64,000 nt of DNA from Sulfurisoma sp. (lineage in GTDB: Bacteria > Pseudomonadota > Gammaproteobacteria > Burkholderiales > Rhodocyclaceae): positions 52,701-116,700 of the forward strand of contig JAUYFI010000136.1 in assembly GCA_030691075.1 (NCBI GenBank), written 5' to 3'. Under the pieces are notes generated by a model. It was not told the DNA's origin, did no database searches, and saw only the letters and a program-made list of their open reading frames with translations. Positions 6,403 to 52,229 of this stretch are shown in pieces. The number at the start of each line of letters is the position of its first letter. Positions within the stretch are counted from its first letter, which is position 1. Made by a program: the position numbers and the translations under genes.

Positions 6403-7430
6403 TTCCCGGCGATCCGAACCTTCTCGCCGGCGGTGAGCTTGAAGGCGCCGGCCGCGACGATGCGCTCGCCAGCGGCAAGGCCACCGGACACCACCGCGCC
6501 GGCGTCGCCGTAGCGCTCCACCTCGATCGGGCGCAACGCCACCGCGTTGTCCTTGCCGATCACCCACACCGAGGGCTGGCTACCCTGCTGCAGGATCGCG
6601 GCCAGCGGCACGACAACCTTCTCCCCGCCCGCCTGGGCGAAGCTCACGGTGGCGGTCATCCCCAGCGCGACGCTGGCATCGGCATCGGCGATGCTGACAC
6701 GGGCGGCAAAGGTGCGCGTCGCCGCGTCCGCCACCGGCGCCAGCTCGCGCAGCACGCCCTTGTAGGCCTTGCCACGCTCTCCCGCCCACAACTCCACCGT
6801 CCCGCCAGCGCCGACTTTTTGACCGGCGACGCGCGACTCGGGAATATTGATCGCCACCTCGCGCTCGCCGTCGCGGGCGAGGCGGAACACGCCCTGCCCG
6901 GCCGCCACCACCTGCCCCGGCTCGGCCAGCACGGCGGCCACGACGCCGGCCGCGTCGGCAGACAGCGTGGTGTAGGACGACTGGTTCTTCGCCAACGCGG
7001 CCTGAGCGTCGGCGGCCTTGGCCGTCGTCTCCTTCGCGTCGAGCGCGGCCTGGCTGATGAAATTCTTCGCCCTGAGATCCTGCGTGCGCTTGAGTTCGGC
7101 CGCCGCCAGCGCGCGGTTGGCCTCGGCCTGCGTTGCCTGCAAGGCCGCGTCGGCGGGATCGAGCCGCGCCAGCGGCTGCCCGGCCTTGACCCGCGCGCCG
7201 GCATCGACCAGGCGCTCGATCACCTTGCCGCCGATGCGAAAGCCCAGCAGGGTCTCGTAACGCGCGCGCACCTCGCCGCTGTAGCGGTTGACCCCCTGCA
7301 ACGCCTCGCCGCCGACCACCAGCGACTTGACCAGTTTCGGCCCGGCCGAATTGACGGATGGCGGCGGCGATTTCTCGCCGCAGGCGGCAAGCAGCAGCGG
7401 CAGCGTGACAAGAAGAAGGAGTTTTCTCAT
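6399..7430 (-). CDS. RND efflux membrane-fusion lipoprotein
   Basis: Periplasmic adaptor of the RND system, 343 residues starting MRKLLLLVTLPLLLAACG. The LLAAC lipobox predicts a lipoprotein anchored in the inner membrane. It contains a lipoyl half-motif (VDAGARVKAGQPLARLDPAD), an alpha-hairpin coiled coil (residues ~90-150), a second lipoyl half (DAAGVVAAVLAEPGQVV) and a beta-barrel domain. It starts 47 bases after the TetR gene and overlaps the pump gene by 4 bases, so the three form one operon. One copy of the dispersed GCCAGCGCCGACTTTTT motif lies antisense in the gene and encodes the stretch QKVGAGGT. Confidence 0.9.
   Translation of the reverse strand: MRKLLLLVTLPLLLAACGEKSPPPSVNSAGPKLVKSLVVGGEALQGVNRYSGEVRARYETLLGFRIGGKVIERLVDAGARVKAGQPLARLDPADAALQATQAEANRALAAAELKRTQDLRAKNFISQAALDAKETTAKAADAQAALAKNQSSYTTLSADAAGVVAAVLAEPGQVVAAGQGVFRLARDGEREVAINIPESRVAGQKVGAGGTVELWAGERGKAYKGVLRELAPVADAATRTFAARVSIADADASVALGMTATVSFAQAGGEKVVVPLAAILQQGSQPSVWVIGKDNAVALRPIEVERYGDAGAVVSGGLAAGERIVAAGAFKLTAGEKVRIAGK
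6797..6820 (+). repeat. dispersed motif, copy 1
   Basis: Exact core GCCAGCGCCGACTTTTT preceded by CCGTCCC. It lies in the antisense strand of the membrane-fusion protein gene, where it encodes KVGAGG. See the finding on this family. Confidence 0.9.
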
Positions 7431-24144: not shown

Positions 24145-25311
24145 TCAGGCGGTTTCATTGAAGAGTTCGCGGCCGATCAGCATGCGGCGGATCTCCGACG
24201 TTCCGGCGCCGATCTCGTACAGCTTGGCGTCGCGCCAGAGCCGGCCCGTCGGGTATTCGTTGATGTAGCCGTTGCCGCCCAGCGTCTGGATCGCCTCGCC
24301 GGCCATCCAGGTGGCTTTCTCGGCGGCGTAGAGAATCGCGCCGGCGGCATCCTTGCGCAGGCCGCGCGCGTGGTCGGCACTGTCGCAGGCGCGGCCGACC
24401 GCATAGACGTAGGCGCGGCAGGCCTGCCAGGTGGAATACATGTCGGCAAGCTTGCCCTGCATCAGCTGGAATTCGCCGATGGGCTGACCGAACTGTTTGC
24501 GCTCGTGAACGTAGGGGACGACGACGTCCATGCAGGCGGCCATGATGCCCAGCGGCCCGCCGGCGAGCACGGCGCGTTCGTAGTCGAGGCCCGACATCAA
24601 GACCTTGACGCCGCCGCCGACCTGGCCGAGCACGTTCTCCGCGGGCGCCTCGCAATCCTGGAACACCAGCTCGCAGGTGTTGGAGCCGCGCATGCCGAGC
24701 TTGTCGAGCTTCTGCGCGGTGGAAAAACCCTTGAACCCCTTCTCGACGATGAAGGCCGTCATGCCTTTCGGGCCGGCTGCCGGATCGGTCTTGGCATAGA
24801 CGATCAGGGTGTCGGCGTCGGGGCCGTTGGTGATCCACATCTTGTTGCCGTTGAGCACATAGCGGTCGCCCTTTTTCTCGGCGCGCAGCCGCATCGAGAC
24901 GACGTCGGAGCCCGCGCCCGGCTCGCTCATGGCCAGCGCGCCGACGTGCTCGCCCGATACGAGCTGCGGCAGGTACTTCGTCTTCTGCGCCGCGCTGCCG
25001 TTCCTTCTCATTTGGTTCACGCAGAGATTGGAATGGGCGCCATAGGACAACCCGACCGAGGCCGAGGCGCGCGAGATCTCCTCCATCGCGACGATGTGGG
25101 CGAGATAGCCCATCGCGGTGCCGCCGTATTCCTCCTCGACGGTGATGCCGAGCAAGCCCATGTCGCCGAACTTGCGCCAGAGGTCGGCCGGAAACAGGTT
25201 GTCGTGGTCGATGGCCGCGGCGCGCGGCGCGATCTCGTCGGCGGCGAAGGACTGCACGGTGTCGCGCAGCATGTCGATGTCCTCGCCGAGGAAGAAGTTG
25301 AGTCCGGTCAT
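24145..25311 (-). CDS. liuA: isovaleryl-CoA dehydrogenase
   Basis: A 388-residue enzyme for the first committed oxidation in leucine breakdown. The true start [19 protein letters not shown] is the ATG at 25311; the ORF track runs back into repeat cassette B. The catalytic Glu is at the isovaleryl-CoA dehydrogenase position ([12 protein letters not shown], about residue 250), while the short-chain position is a glycine ([12 protein letters not shown]), which separates it from the neighbouring dehydrogenase. Electrons go to ETF. Confidence 0.94.
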
Positions 25312-25572
25312 GTCAGTTGCTCCATTACGTTTTTGCACCATCCGCGACGCATGAAACGTCTTGTTCGTTGGGGGTCGGGGGGCGCCACTGGTGGCTGGAA
25401 GCGCCTGTGCCCCGGATCCGTCAAACAAGCACGGCGTTGCCAAATCGGGCCGGTGGGGTGCTCTGCGCAGCGAAGTAAAGGAGGAGGCGGCGGTCGAAGA
25501 CCGCCGACGGGGGACATGAGCAGCGCAGAGCACCCCATCGGCCCGATCACGCACCCAGCGTCCAGTTTCATT
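25312..25572 (-). repeat. structured intergenic cassette B
   Basis: A 261-base gap without a supported gene, between the thioesterase stop and the isovaleryl-CoA dehydrogenase start. The hairpin at 25444-25547 has 23-base arms with one mismatch, the core GCGAAGTAAAG...GACATGAGC, and an inner hairpin GGCGGTC-GAA-GACCGCC. On the minus strand it opens with AATGAAACT and ends TGGAGCAACTGAC before the ATG, matching cassettes A and C. Confidence 0.85.
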
Positions 25573-26043
25573 TCAGCGGTCCGGCTTGCCGTGCATGGTC
25601 ATCAGCGTCTGCTGCATGGTCGCGCAGTGGGTGGTCTTGCCGGCCTTGACGACATAGGCGTCGCCGCGCGTGATGACAAGAGTCTTGCCCGACTTGATCA
25701 CCTCGCCGATGGCGATCAGCAGCTCGCCATCGGCGGGCGCAAGCAGGTTGATCTTGAATTCCACCGACAGCACCGAGGCGTCGGGCACCATCAGCGAGAA
25801 GCCGGCATAGCCGGCGGCGCTGTCGACGGCCGTGGTAATGATGCCGGCGTGGAAATAGCCGTGCTGCTGCGTCAGGTCGGCGCGGTAAGGCATGCGGATC
25901 TCGCACCAGCCGGGCTGGATATCCGTCAGTTCAGCACCGATCAGCGTCATCGCGCCCTGACGGGCGAAGCTGGCTCGAACCTTCTCGGCCCAGTGCGGAT
26001 CGCGTGGCTCGAAATGATGCTTCGGCGCCGTCGGCAGGTGCAT
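25573..26043 (-). CDS. PaaI-type hotdog thioesterase
   Basis: A 156-residue hotdog-fold protein starting MHLPTAPKHHFEPRDPHWAEKV. The PaaI core is readable: QQHGYFHAGIITTAVDSAAGYAGF, with the HG of the catalytic loop and the Asp on the central helix, then VEFKINLLAPADGE and GDAYVVKAGK. Such enzymes release CoA from acyl- or aryl-CoA esters. It is the promoter-proximal gene of the acyl-CoA cluster, divergent from the MBL/phaC genes, so a clean-up role preventing CoA trapping is likely. Confidence 0.88.
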   Translation of the reverse strand: MHLPTAPKHHFEPRDPHWAEKVRASFARQGAMTLIGAELTDIQPGWCEIRMPYRADLTQQHGYFHAGIITTAVDSAAGYAGFSLMVPDASVLSVEFKINLLAPADGELLIAIGEVIKSGKTLVITRGDAYVVKAGKTTHCATMQQTLMTMHGKPDR

Positions 26044-26082
26044 CGTAACTCCCTCGATCCCTGTTACCGCCACGATTGCTGC

Positions 26083-43540: not shown

Positions 43541-44059
43541 TCAGGATTTGAGTAGTTGTTTTATGGCGGCGACGATTTCCGGATCGTCGAACTCGCGCCC
43601 GCCGACGGCGCGGAAGGCGATGCGGCCCTGCCGGTCGATGAGCAGCGTGGTCGGCAGGCCCTTGACCGGCCAGGCCGCCATCGCCTTCGAGTCGCGGTCG
43701 AACAGCACCGGGAATTCCGTATGGCCGGCGAAGGAAAACACCGTGTCCGGATCCTCGCCGACGTTGACCGCCAGCACCTCGAATTCGGCGGGCTTGAACA
43801 GCTTCTTCACGCGGCCGAGCGAGGGAAATTCCTTGCGGCAGGGCGGGCACCAGGTCGCCCAGAAATTCACCAGCACCACGCGGCCCTTGTATTGCGCGAG
43901 ATCGACGGTCTTGCCGTCGCTGTCCGGCAGACGCAAAGTCGGCGCCGGCGGGACGACGGGGATGGCGGTCATGCCCCGGCCCTGCGCCCGCAATGACGGC
44001 GCGCATGCCAGCAGCGCAAGACCCGCGCCGGCGAAAATGAAACGGCGGCGCTCAGTCAT
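43541..44059 (-). CDS. TlpA-family thiol:disulfide oxidoreductase
   Basis: A 172-residue exported thioredoxin-fold protein from MTERRRFIFAGAGLALLACAPSL. The RRRF start resembles a Tat motif and LLAC a possible lipobox. The active site is NFWATWCPPCRKEFP near residue 72, with GLPTTLLIDRQG as the cis-proline loop. Such proteins reduce periplasmic disulfides, for example in cytochrome or metal-cofactor maturation. Its start overlaps the upstream hypothetical by eight bases. A one-mismatch motif copy lies in the gene. Confidence 0.88.
   Translation of the reverse strand: MTERRRFIFAGAGLALLACAPSLRAQGRGMTAIPVVPPAPTLRLPDSDGKTVDLAQYKGRVVLVNFWATWCPPCRKEFPSLGRVKKLFKPAEFEVLAVNVGEDPDTVFSFAGHTEFPVLFDRDSKAMAAWPVKGLPTTLLIDRQGRIAFRAVGGREFDDPEIVAAIKQLLKS
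43935..43956 (-). repeat. dispersed motif, variant copy (one mismatch)
   Basis: Minus strand: GTCCCGCCGGCGCCGACTTT, one change (A to G) in the core; sense to the TlpA gene. Confidence 0.65.
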
Positions 44060-47025: not shown

Positions 47026-49802
47026 GCTGCCACCCGCTCGATATCCACCGCCGATTCGAAGGCGATCATGTTGCCGTCCCAGTTGGGGTTGAATGTGAGG
47101 TGCCCCCAGCCATCGACCAGTTCCAGCGGCGAGATCATCCCCGCCACGGCGTTGTTGAGACCCAGTTTGTTCCTGAACTGGTAGGGCTCCCAGGCATGAT
47201 CCATCACCACCGATCCCGGCGGCACGGCCGGCATGAGCTTGGCGCGGGCGAAGAATTCGCCGACGTCGTTGAAGACCCGCAGCGGGTCGCCCTCGGCGAT
47301 GCCCTTGTCCCGCGCCGTCTTCGGATTGAGCCAGACATGCGGCTCGCCGCGCTGGAGGCGCAGCAGATAGGTGTTGGTGCGCCACTGCGAGTGGATGCCG
47401 TGGCGCGCGTGGGGTGTGTAGAAGGCGAAGGGAAAGGTGTTCGGCCGCAGCGGCGGCAGGGCGGTCGGCGTCGCACAGCCCATTTTCATATAGACCGGGT
47501 GGTCGACATAGAACTGCTGCCGGCCCGAAAGCGTCGGGTAAGGCTGGCGCAGGTAGACATTGTTCTCGAAGGAATGGAAGGGACGGTTGGCGTGGAGCGG
47601 TGAGTTGAAGCCGGCTTCGCGGTTCAAGGTGACGAAGCCGCGCTTCATCGCGTCCTCGGGCGTCCACGGCGCGATGGCCGGCACGTTCTGCATCAGCCAG
47701 CGCACGACATCCTCGTCGGTCAACAGGTTGCCGCCGTCGCTGAAATCGTCGGGCAGATTGGCCAGATCGCGCAGCACCGGGCCGGCCATATTCCCATCCT
47801 TGCCGGACTGCACCAGGAAGTCGGGATCGGGGATGCTGGCGATGCCGCGCTTCTTCGCCTCGCGCGCGATGGCTTCGGCAAGCAGCAGGCAGATATCCCA
47901 TTCCGACTTTGTTTCGCCGATGGGTTTGAGTCCCTTCGGCGGCACGGTGATGTTGCAGAAGCGGTGGTAGCCCAGTTCGCCGCGCAAGTCCCAGGATTCG
48001 TACTGGCTCTTCGCCGGCAGCACGTAATCCGACCACAGCGCGGTGGTGTCCATGCGGTGGTTGACGTTCACCAGCAGGTCGAGGTTCTCGATGAAAGTCT
48101 TGCGGTAGTGCGATTCCGACTTGTTCCGTTGCAGCAGGTTGTCGGCGAAAAGCAGCACGACGCGCGGCTTGCCAAAGTAGGCGTTGCTGGTCTGGCGGAA
48201 CTTGTCGCCGAGTTCCTTGATGCCGTCGGCATCGATGCCGAACGCGGCCTTGAGGTGGGCGTCGGGGTAGTGGCGGCGCATCGTCGTCTCCATGCCGCCG
48301 TTCTCCCACTCGGAGAAGAAGCCCGAGGCGAAGCGCGCCGGCTTGGGGCTGGAAAGCGGGCCGATGCCGCCCAGCGACCAGTTGTTTTCGGTATCCAGCC
48401 CGCCGCGCTCGCCGGCATGGGCGGTGAGCGCGCAGGCCAGCGCCGCCGCCCAGCAGGTCATGGTGCCGGAGACATACTTGTGCAGCGAGAAACCGATGTT
48501 GATGATGGCCTTGTCCGCCTTCGCCAGATCGCGCGCCATGCGCTCGACCAACTCGGGATGCACGCCGGTGGTCTCGCGTGTCATCGAAGGCGGGAACTTC
48601 ATCGCCTCGGCCCGCGCCTTCGCGAAGACGGTGGTCACCGCTATCTCCTTGCCGTCGCGGCCCTTGACCTTCCAGCTTCCGGAAAGGACAGGTTTCAACT
48701 TGCCCAGGCGCAGGCTTTTGGTGAAATGGCCCTTGGTACCGGGCATGGGCTGGGCGGACTGCGTAGCCTCGTCCCAGCAGTAGAAGACGTCGGCCTTGCC
48801 CTTGTCGCGCAGGTCGCGGTGGCGCAGCAGTTCGCCATTGTCGGTGCGCACCAGGAAGGGCAGATCGGTCTGCTCGCGCACGAAGGTCTCGTCGATGAGA
48901 TTGTCGCGGAACAGCACATGCAGCAGCGACATCGCCAGAAAACTGTCGGTGCCCGGCTTCACCGGCACCCAGTCGGTGGCCAGCTTCGCCGTGGCGTTGT
49001 ATTCGGGCGTGATGCACCAGATGCGCGCGCCGTTGTAGCGCGCCTCGGACAGATAGTGGGCATCCGGGATGCGCGTCACCGCTGCATTGATGCCCCACAG
49101 GATGATGGTCTTGGCCTCGAACCAGGCATCGAGCGAATGGCCGATGGTGGCGATGCCGTAGGCCAGCGACGCGCCGGTGAACATGTCGCCCACGGCGCTG
49201 GCCGGATACAAGCGCTGCGCGCCGAGCAGCGAGCCCAGGCGCAGCGGCCCGGCGCGCCGGCCCTGCGAGAGGATGCCGGTGCCGCAGTGGAGCATCAGCG
49301 AGCCGAGGCCGTTCTTCTGCAAGGTATCGACGACGCGCACGGCGATGTCGTCCATCGCTTCCTGCCAAGATACCCGCTGCCACTTGCCGTCGCCGCGGCG
49401 GCCCATGCGCTTCAACGGATGCAGCAGGCGGTCGGCCTGGTGCATCTGCTTCGAATGGACGATACCCTTGTTGCAGCCGCGCGGATTGGCGTCCGGAATC
49501 TTCGGATTGATCTGCGGATAGGCGGCGGACTGCTCCTCGCGGGTGACTTTGCCGTCCTTGGCGAACACGCGCCAGGCGCAGTTGCCCTGGCAGTTCGAAC
49601 AGTGGAAGGCGAAGCCCTGCGCATCGCCGCGCGTGCCGAGGAATTCCTTGCGATAAATGTCTTCCCACGCGCGTCCCGCCGTCCCGCCAGCGCCGACTTT
49701 TTGCCCTTGTCGCGCGAACGCCGGCAAGGGAGCGAGCGGCCCGCCGAAAGCCAGCGCCAAGCCGCAGTAGGCCGTGCCTTTGAGGAATTCGCGGCGTTCC
49801 AT
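47022..49802 (-). CDS. molybdopterin catalytic alpha subunit, type II DMSO-reductase family
   Basis: A 926-residue Tat-exported molybdoenzyme (MERREFLKGTAYCGLALAF). FHCSNCQGNCAW gives the His-Cys-Cys part of the type II FS0 cluster with the last cysteine in NPRGCNKG. AVGDMFTGASLAYGIATIG contains the probable Mo-binding aspartate region. Pterin-binding domains continue to NPNWDGNMIAFESAVD. Relatives include ethylbenzene, steroid C25 and dimethyl sulfide dehydrogenases, selenate and chlorate reductases; the substrate cannot be told. Neighbouring rhodanese, DsrE and TauE genes hint at a sulfur compound. No TorD-type chaperone gene is visible nearby. Motif copy 9 follows the Tat signal. Confidence 0.92.
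49679..49702 (+). repeat. dispersed motif, copy 9
   Basis: Exact core GCCAGCGCCGACTTTTT preceded by CCGTCCC, antisense in the alpha subunit gene just after the Tat signal, encoding KVGAGGT. Confidence 0.9.
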
Positions 49803-50680: not shown

Positions 50681-51238
50681 TTAGCGAGCGATTGTCTGCC
50701 GGATCAGCTCTTCCATCGCCGGGCTGTCCCAGTGCTGCGGCCCGGTCTTGCCGGCGAGGAGGCGCCCCTGACGGTCGAGCAGGTAGGTCACCGGCACGCC
50801 CCTGGCGCGGAAGGCGGCCGCCGTCGCGCCGTCATTGTCCATCAGGATGTCGAAAACCGGCTTCCTGCCAGCGAGAAAGCGGCCGATGCCATCTTCCGAA
50901 TCGGACACGCTCACCGCGAGCACCGTGAAGTCCTTGCCGCCGAGTTTTTGCTGCAAGCGTTCAAGCGACGGGAACTCCTCGCGGCAGGGCGGGCACCAAC
51001 TCGCCCAGAAATTGAGCAGCACGACGCGACCCTTGTAATCCTCGGCGCCGCGCGACTCGTTACCGGGGCCGCCGAAGCTCGGCAGGCGCAAGGGCGGCGC
51101 CCGCAGCGCGGTCGGGTAGGGCTCCATGCCGGCCTTGCGCGCCAGTTCGGCGTCCGGCGCGGCCGCGACAGCGACCGCGCTTGCCGTCATGACGATGGCC
51201 AGCAGCGGCAGCGCGAAGGCAGCGCGCGGATGTCTCAC
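50681..51238 (-). CDS. TlpA-family periplasmic thioredoxin
   Basis: A 185-residue exported protein starting at GTG 51238 (VRHPRAAFALPLLAIVMTASAVAVAA signal), overlapping the upstream stop. The thioredoxin motif is NFWASWCPPCREEFPSLERL near residue 82 and GVPVTYLLDRQGRLLAGKTG is the cis-proline region. It is the second TlpA-type reductase of the locus and may keep the rhodanese or molybdoenzyme cysteines reduced. Confidence 0.88.
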   Translation of the reverse strand: MRHPRAAFALPLLAIVMTASAVAVAAAPDAELARKAGMEPYPTALRAPPLRLPSFGGPGNESRGAEDYKGRVVLLNFWASWCPPCREEFPSLERLQQKLGGKDFTVLAVSVSDSEDGIGRFLAGRKPVFDILMDNDGATAAAFRARGVPVTYLLDRQGRLLAGKTGPQHWDSPAMEELIRQTIAR

Positions 51239-51600
51239 AGGCAGCCCTTGAAGAATTTCTTTTCGCCGCTCGTTTCCAGCACGTCGAGCTTGGTCGGCGC
51301 GATCACGCCCGCCTTGATCTCGCCGCTCAGGCGGACTTTTTTCGCGTACGACTTGTCCACGTCGGCCACGCTGACCGCCTTGCCCTCGCCCCACTGGAAG
51401 GCCAGCTTCTCGCCGTTCTCCAGCAGCAGCACGGTTTTGTCGACATGACGCAGCGGGCAGTCGGCCACCTGCAGGCTCGCCGCGCACGGCTCGCCGATCA
51501 GCCAGCCCTCCCATTCGCCGGCCAGGGCCGCGGGCGCCAGGAAGAGCCAGGCCGTCATGGCCAGCGCGAGACGCAGCGAACTCGTCGAGCGGAGTTTCAT
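51235..51600 (-). CDS. secreted hypothetical protein, 121 residues
   Basis: A small exported protein (signal SLRLALAMTAWLFLAPAALAG). The mature part, EWEGWLIGEPCAASLQVADCPLRHV, then FQWGEGKAVSV and KKFFKGCL, has three cysteines and resembles small OB-like exported domains, but no family is recognised. It is co-translated with the TlpA gene. Its ATG is joined to the conserved leader of repeat cassette C. Confidence 0.7.
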   Translation of the reverse strand: MKLRSTSSLRLALAMTAWLFLAPAALAGEWEGWLIGEPCAASLQVADCPLRHVDKTVLLLENGEKLAFQWGEGKAVSVADVDKSYAKKVRLSGEIKAGVIAPTKLDVLETSGEKKFFKGCL

Positions 51601-51782
51601 GTCAGTTACCCCATGGCGCCGCGCGCACCCGCGACGCTACCCGATCGGGACAGTGGGGCGTTCTGCGCAGCGAAGTAAAGGATGAGGCGGCGGCCGCAGG
51701 CCGGGGCCAAGGGACATGAGCGGAGCAGAATGCCCCGCCGTCCCGATCACGCGCCAGCCTCAACACTGGGGTAGGTTTCATC
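51601..51782 (-). repeat. structured intergenic cassette C
   Basis: A 182-base gap. On the minus strand it begins GATGAAACC after the upstream stop and ends TGGGGTAACTGAC before the ATG. The hairpin 51643-51748 has 24-base arms with compensating differences from A and B, the same core GCGAAGTAAAG and GACATGAGC, and an inner CGGCC-GCA-GGCCG hairpin. Confidence 0.85.
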
Positions 51783-52229
51783 CTAGCCTCCGCCGGCCTT
51801 GATCGATGCCTTCAACGCCTCGAAATCCTTCTTCACTTCCATCAGGCGGCCCTGCTGCTCCTGCTTGGGCGCGCCCTCGATCTCCAGCACGTCGGCGACC
51901 GCCTGGTAACCCACCATGCCGTTGAAGTCGCCGCCGTCCACCGCCAGCAGTTGCCCGCCGTAATAGACGGCCGGCGCCTTGGCGCCAGGGCCGGCGTAGG
52001 TCACCGGGACGACGACGATCGGCACCTTGTAGATGTTGGAAAGTTCGGCGGCAATCTGCAGGTTGTTGTTGCAGCGAACCCCCGGCGGGTCGCGCGAGAC
52101 GAGCGTCAGCACCTTCTGGCCGTTGAGGGCGGTCGGGCCGGGCGCCTGGGCCAGCGCCGCGCCGGATACGGTACCGAGGCTTGCCAGCACAAGGCACGAC
52201 AGCAGTATGTTGCGCGATGCGTTCATCAT
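51783..52229 (-). CDS. secreted hypothetical protein, thioredoxin-like by appearance
   Basis: A 148-residue exported protein with a signal peptide (ILLSCLVLASLGTVSGAALAQ) and a strong ribosome site CAGGAGGTAAC before a double ATG. The mature part (GQKVLTLVSRDPPGVRCNNNLQIAAELSNIYKVPIVVVPVTY...APAVYYGGQLL) alternates strand and helix like a thioredoxin fold with a single cysteine. It ends in a helical MEVKKDFEALKASIKAG. Function unknown; it sits between TauE and cassette C in the sulfur locus. Confidence 0.72.
   Translation of the reverse strand: MMNASRNILLSCLVLASLGTVSGAALAQAPGPTALNGQKVLTLVSRDPPGVRCNNNLQIAAELSNIYKVPIVVVPVTYAGPGAKAPAVYYGGQLLAVDGGDFNGMVGYQAVADVLEIEGAPKQEQQGRLMEVKKDFEALKASIKAGGG

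Follow-up and report, generated by a model that had tools for sequence, protein, structure and literature searches.

Why three short repeats in a 64,000-nucleotide (nt) stretch of Sulfurisoma sp. contig JAUYFI010000136.1 (the window) each run precisely from one gene's stop codon to the start codon of the following gene is a question of both origin and tolerance, as transposons inside operons are expected to be polar. From comparison of these minus-strand cassettes with their relatives, we hold with good confidence that they are non-autonomous derivatives, resembling miniature inverted-repeat transposable elements (MITEs), of a bridge RNA- or seekRNA-guided insertion sequence (IS) of the IS110 family, and that they are tolerated in operons by relaying ribosomes. 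Computation established the ends and the target, the matches of guide sequences, the empty sites and an excess of open frames over chance, with genome-wide counts taken from searches of the draft genome.

Ends and build of the cassettes

Other genomes and plasmids also contain the right tip of the cassette with no hairpin body attached, and in several such cases it was the upstream end of an IS110-family IS encoding PF01548 and PF02371 domains. The opposite end of that IS reads CT/AGGATGAAACCC (slashes mark insertion points), which is the cassette left tip. Both cassette tips match L260, L290 and L258 (AGGATGAAAC; GCGCGGTGGAGCAACT), and full IS110-family elements share the tips CT/AGGATGAAAC...GGAGCAACT/GANATG. 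As judged from these sequences the IS110 assignment of the ends is firm and, because the tips are shared, the window cassettes are predicted to be transposase-less derivatives of such an element. Hosts of the autonomous IS, which has a DEDD transposase of the bridge/seekRNA type, are Aromatoleum, Thauera and relatives; when the search for close transposases was widened to the order, two were recovered. Both tips recur, around different interiors, in cassettes of Pseudothauera and others; at L264, L262 and L295, in Pseudothauera and relatives, the interior of the same-ended cassettes consists of CCCCTCTCCC/GGGAGAGGGG-type palindromes. An IS1111-type element moved cargo placed between its ends when transposase and guide RNA were both provided in trans (PMC11187229), and by analogy an IS110 transposase may have mobilised the cassettes in trans.

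The complete element of approximately 349 nt comprises a left tip (ATGAAACTCGACGTTTGG...), hairpin 1, a linker, hairpin 2 (an inverted copy of hairpin 1) and a right tip (GTTTCATGCGTCGC...GGTGGAGCAACTGAC). Approximately 19 cassette sites, single and dispersed, were found in the window's genome (G000), with many copies in the same-genus genomes G001 and G003 and none in the same-genus genome G002. A few family members also carry copies; copy numbers from the family-wide search are lower bounds, since in each genome it scored the best candidates only. Thirty-five copies from four genomes were curated by hand, with left ends placed by eye. Alignment of 21 long copies gave 65 hairpin pairs, with 97% of cells paired and two-sided changes in 39 of the 65, and a Shine-Dalgarno (SD)-like word precedes the next ATG in 25 of the 35 curated copies. 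Rfam searches with the cassette gave nothing above gathering score, returning sub-threshold microRNA models only. An extra insert, GCGCGGAGCAGTGCTCCGCG...CTGCCTACGCC, was seen in some cassettes and at one junction in G001/G003 (L128, L137, L211, L133) and apparently represents another family of small repeats that lies within cassettes or takes their place.

The features in the window are as follows, all on the minus strand.

20890..21504, minus: gene downstream of cassette 1, DSBA-domain protein (isomerase-like)
21501..21806, minus: cassette 1 reading frame, 101 aa, frame class A; its TGA overlaps the ATG of the next gene (ATGA)
21502..21516, minus: cassette 1 right end and next start, GGGGCAACT/GACATG
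21530..21629, minus: cassette 1 hairpin 2, inverted relative to hairpin 1, GCGAAGTAAAGAAGGAG...GGATGACATGAGC (approximate limits)
21681..21780, minus: cassette 1 hairpin 1 (approximate limits)
21808..22953, minus: gene upstream of cassette 1, acyl-CoA dehydrogenase
24145..25311, minus: gene downstream of cassette 2, acyl-CoA dehydrogenase
25308..25571, minus: cassette 2 reading frame, 87 aa, frame class A, hairpin 2 largely deleted; its TGA overlaps the ATG of the next gene (ATGA)
25309..25323, minus: cassette 2 right end and next start, GGAGCAACT/GACATG, with SD-like GGAG 8 nt before the ATG
25444..25548, minus: cassette 2 hairpin 1 (approximate limits)
25573..26073, minus: gene upstream of cassette 2, thioesterase-superfamily (4HBT) protein
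51235..51600, minus: gene downstream of cassette 3, 121-aa protein with an N-terminal hydrophobic stretch and no Pfam match
51598..51612, minus: cassette 3 right end and next start, GGGGTAACT/GACATG
51602..51781, minus: cassette 3 reading frame, 59 aa, ATGAAACC...GGTAACTGA, frame class B
51604..51784, minus: cassette 3, probable inserted unit between the CT core dinucleotides, AGGATGAAAC...GGTAACT, ends set by comparison with full-length IS110 copies
51643..51748, minus: cassette 3 hairpin 1, GATCGGGACGGCGGGGCATTCTGC...GCAGAACGCCCCACTGTCCCGATC, with conserved internal CTCATGTC / CTTTACTTCGC

A first-pass annotation centred on cassette 3 (51598-51782) had described an exact stop-to-start fit, ATGAAAC left ends and a shared right end, and all of this was borne out in the three minus-strand copies. 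The left ends consist of a stop codon, one nucleotide and ATGAAAC (TAG-G-ATG in copies 1 and 3, TGA-A-ATG in copy 2). The right ends are GGGGCAACTGACATG, GGAGCAACTGACATG and GGGGTAACTGACATG, and the right-end 15-mer, allowing at most two mismatches, has three matches in the window against 0.11 expected by chance. From ATG to next ATG the copies measure 302, 260 and 181 nt respectively, the final ATG being part of the next gene or target and lying outside the element. Cassette 3 keeps hairpin 1 only, hairpin 2 having been lost; it is flanked by ..GGCT on the left and GACATG on the right, and the TGA of its frame, which like those of the other two was translated directly, lies 1 nt 5' of the ATG of the next gene (51600-51598). 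The downstream genes, as had been stated, are unrelated (a DSBA-domain isomerase-like protein, an acyl-CoA dehydrogenase and the 121-aa protein), and the proposal that the element carries its own initiation region holds as anatomy, with SD-like GGAG in the right end 8 nt before the next ATG.

ATGAAAC/GTTTCAT forms a subterminal inverted repeat, the sole inverted repeat at the cassette ends, and no target-site duplication was found beyond the shared CT; the terminal inverted repeats plus duplication of a classical MITE are absent. A 'TGANATG' target-site duplication was considered and dropped for the CT core, as left and right copies differ (TAGG versus TGAC). An upstream TAG stop as an element signature was likewise rejected, being present in 13 of 35 copies but also in 12 of 45 greedily called window genes.

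Target site, guide segments and empty sites

A scan of named genomes with the right tip, with nothing specified after ..GGAGCAACT (...GCAACT), returned 35 stretches, nearly all from Betaproteobacteria where named and one assigned to Lysobacteraceae. GANATG came next after the tip in 30 of these 35 loci, and the insertion site is therefore CT/GANATG, a fused stop and start codon, with CT (AG on the transposase strand) as core dinucleotide.

The noncoding region of the IS upstream of the transposase contains two short variable segments in a conserved background. The first (TATGTCAG, TACTTCAG, TATTTCAG, TATATCAG, TATCTCAG, TTGAATAG, TTTGAGAG) agrees with the sequence flanking the upstream IS end; across 8 IS copies, the 7 nt that end with the core contain one mismatch at most. 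The second (CATCCTAG, CATCTCAG, CACTTCAG, GTCTAG, CTTACCAG) corresponds to the opposite IS end in all full copies read. Both segments track junction changes in distant relatives (TTGAATAG and TTTGAGAG; GTCTAG and CTTACCAG). These variable segments are predicted guides, behaving as described for bridge RNA and seekRNA (PMC11208160, PMC11187229).

Thirty-three of the 35 curated copies lie between two same-strand open reading frames (ORFs) of at least 60 codons each; the exceptions are one copy cut by a contig end and L141, from another genus, which lacks a long ORF upstream. At seven junctions that carry a cassette in the window's genome, a relative has contiguous sequence, which shows insertion. 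The cleanest empty site is L116, where G003 has CCTGAAATGAAATACC, reading GGACCTGAAATGAAATACC, and G000 has GGACTTGAAATGAAACTCG...GGAGCAACTGAAATGAAATACC. With these empty sites, the ends common to IS110-family IS and copies at non-homologous junctions, the earlier suggestion of a mobile inter-gene cassette was upheld. Relatives lacking the cassette have the same downstream starts preceded by unrelated leaders, which is no blow to that suggestion because mobile insertion predicts exactly this, and no curated copy ends elsewhere. At an nrdR-like junction G000 carries a cassette (L105), and G001 and G003 carry an unrelated sequence of approximately 120-200 bp (L211, L212).

A reading frame open from tip to tip

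From the left ATG (GTG in two copies) to the right tip, no in-frame stop was found in 33 of the 35 curated copies, and the other five frames were open in 0, 11, 6, 4 and 7 of 35. The frame usually ends in TGA-N-ATG (TGA-C-ATG) or in ATGA with the next start codon. The first-pass annotation had proposed that the cassettes supply the same translation leader; ATGAAAC is indeed common to the copies, but rather than being a leader only it starts a frame that fills the cassette up to the next start codon. Two cassette classes enter the shared DNA in different frames: in class A copies frame A is open in 20/21 and frame B in 9/21, and in class B copies frame B is open in 8/8 and frame A in 2/8. Placing the observed substitutions at random on the class consensus gave an expectation of 6.7 open copies of 18, compared with 17 of 18 observed. 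Differences between same-locus copies fell at codon positions 1, 2 and 3 in the numbers 118, 85 and 93, with no third-position excess; open-ness therefore appears to be kept and not the peptide, and peptide conservation was rejected for want of synonymous bias.

Full-length IS behave similarly, as four copies are single frames of 491-492 codons antisense to the transposase, running from the left ATG/GTG to the target TGA. These copies, open tip to tip (L290, L310, L260 and, from Thauera butanivorans, L256), come from G118, Aromatoleum anaerobium, a Lysobacteraceae metagenome-assembled genome and T. butanivorans. Translation of the cassette frame would be in keeping with these patterns.

Several sites are common to two or three species (for example L112/L123/L135, L110/L124/L136 and L117/L138). 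Same-junction copies were rarely each other's closest match, the ortholog ranking first in 1 of 15 comparisons, and the frame class differs between species at several junctions (L111/L121, L107/L127, L110/L136), from which we infer that cassettes have been replaced or converted. The frame is open each time at these three pairs despite that turnover.

Competing explanations, mechanism and meaning

Several observations weigh against a translated, junction-targeted IS110 derivative. An autonomous IS of matching type was not found in the genus as sampled, so that current mobility is conjectural. The exact stop/start overlap CTGANATG was kept at one empty site only (L116), older sites having diverged or differing. 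It occurs at 5 sites in the window with none at a called gene's stop, so that it is no operon-junction marker alone; as gene ends in the window are not enriched for it, selection on survival must have a part in where copies lie, and the junction placement is best read as guide specificity combined with loss of insertions elsewhere. Frames are broken in 2 of the 35 copies (L108 and L116) and in one full-length IS (L309; the Rhizobacter copy is not open). Setting left ends by eye at a start codon biases the count of ATG starts upward but leaves downstream open-ness unaffected, and the counts lack independence because the copies share ancestry. In GC-rich genes, moreover, chance alone often leaves antisense frames open, and the full-IS frames are therefore supportive and not decisive.

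The interior invites a different origin, in which the inverted hairpin pair is itself the mobile unit, a repetitive extragenic palindromic (REP) or bacterial interspersed mosaic element (BIME) moved by a Y1 REP-associated tyrosine transposase (RAYT), with the ends as mere flanks. The two inverted hairpins with their conserved internal motif would fit, as would the related hairpin cores that lack these ends in other Betaproteobacteria (G036, Variovorax plasmids). However, where the hairpins are missing, both ends or most of them persist (L119; in L118, the left end), the ends are common to cassettes with other interiors (L259, L262, L264, L293, L295), and every one of the 24 exact core motifs of this genome falls within a cassette, with no free units. 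A RAYT/REP-only origin was rejected on this absence of free cores together with that of any Y1 transposase (Y1_Tnp) in G000 or G001, and we regard the hairpin-driven account as very unlikely. We give about as little credence, or marginally less, to open-ness as a by-product of GC content and hairpin constraint rather than of translation: GC is approximately 67% and hairpins restrict substitutions, but other frames of the same copies hold stops, the stop-free frame switches with the frame class, and the random placement of the same substitutions falls far short of the open copies observed.

A frame whose two ends coincide with the element tips in almost every copy could also denote a repeated gene whose conserved small product matters, yet one DNA is read in two frames to give unrelated peptides, synonymous bias and Pfam matches are lacking, and copies with half the element deleted remain open, which leaves this account highly improbable. 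The view of the first-pass annotation, that the cassette is kept as a cis-regulatory element setting expression levels within operons, whatever its origin, draws on the sites shared by two or three species, the covarying hairpins and the SD-like right end. Several of those same junctions are nevertheless empty in sister species, the host genes are unrelated, the cassettes at one site are usually not closest relatives, and persistence alone is no demonstration of regulation; we consider such a role unlikely, if less so than the preceding three.

Under the IS110-derived, ribosome-relaying account, the IS would insert at CT/GANATG, at a gene junction where a stop codon is followed one base on by a start codon. 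On the left, the upstream gene ..CT joined to AGGATGAAAC.. would gain a fresh stop codon, TAG or TGA, with a fresh start codon after it, and on the right ..GGAGCAACT joined to GANATG.. would yield an SD-like element, a TGA stop and the original start codon. Ribosomes finishing the upstream gene would then re-initiate on the cassette frame, traverse the stop-free body, terminate at the next start and re-initiate there, so that coupling would be relayed and untranslated, Rho-exposed RNA avoided (Rho-dependent polarity is reviewed as a general mechanism in PMC12548453). In the window's genus the transposase would have been lost, with a pair of inverted REP-like hairpins as the interior. Our main inference is that relief of polarity may be the selected benefit, that is, the reason for the open frame.

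The full-length IS resemble described IS110 elements in their ends, their DEDD_Tnp_IS110 and Transposase_20 domains, the upstream noncoding region, the CT core and the variable guide segments matching junctions (PMC11208160, PMC11187229). The cassettes, unlike those elements, lack transposase and guide RNA, target the stop/start junction CT/GANATG and carry a continuous frame in the direction of the host operon; the main-text passages of PMC11208160 and PMC11187229 hold no counterpart of the stop/start-junction target. Coxiella QMITE1 and QMITE2 are, like the cassettes, short, transposase-less, dispersed and persistent (PMC5896051). The cassettes differ from MITEs in their IS110-type parent, without classic terminal inverted repeats or target-site duplication, in their stop/start junction site and in their end-to-end open frame. 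Chunjie (Genetics 2008) is reportedly a further MITE example. ERIC and RU elements are also small intergenic repeats that have been likened to MITEs and in which open frames are noted, but RU frames are reported fused into host genes, whereas the cassette frame begins and ends at its own tips and abuts both neighbours (PMC2759123). REP/BIME elements with RAYT share the two inverted imperfect hairpins of the cassette interior (PMC2817692); the cassettes differ in that no RAYT was found in the genome, no single units occur free and the mobile boundary lies at IS110-type ends.

Two other repeats were noted in the window. The 18-mer CGCCAGCGCCGACTTTTT, noted with repeat families D2/D3 (for example 6796-6845, 21074-21123 and 49678-49727), has 136 exact occurrences in the 3.39 Mb genome (77 forward, 59 reverse; reversed control 0) and resembles an uptake-signal-like dispersed word. 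Positions 43805-43898 and 50951-51044 are 81% identical, with a minus strand that reads as a thioredoxin-like WATWCPPCRKEF motif, and are probably paralogous redox genes.

On balance we favour, with some reserve, the view that the guide of an RNA-guided IS110 lineage is directed at the stop/start overlap CTGANATG and that the full IS and its short derivatives are translated tip to tip, which would make it a translation-transparent transposon. If so, insertion into an operon would preserve the stop, the start, the ribosome-binding site and translational coupling, and to the problem of polarity the family suggests a solution in an RNA-programmed stop/start target, a body free of stops and tips from which both codons are re-formed. 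Nature would then provide a case in which the targets chosen by a guide RNA evolve toward sites where insertion does no harm, and one in which selection keeps a frame open whatever the peptide. For polarity-free insertion of DNA between operon genes, the family supplies junction sequences ready for use (CTGANATG) together with a bridge-RNA system of natural origin.
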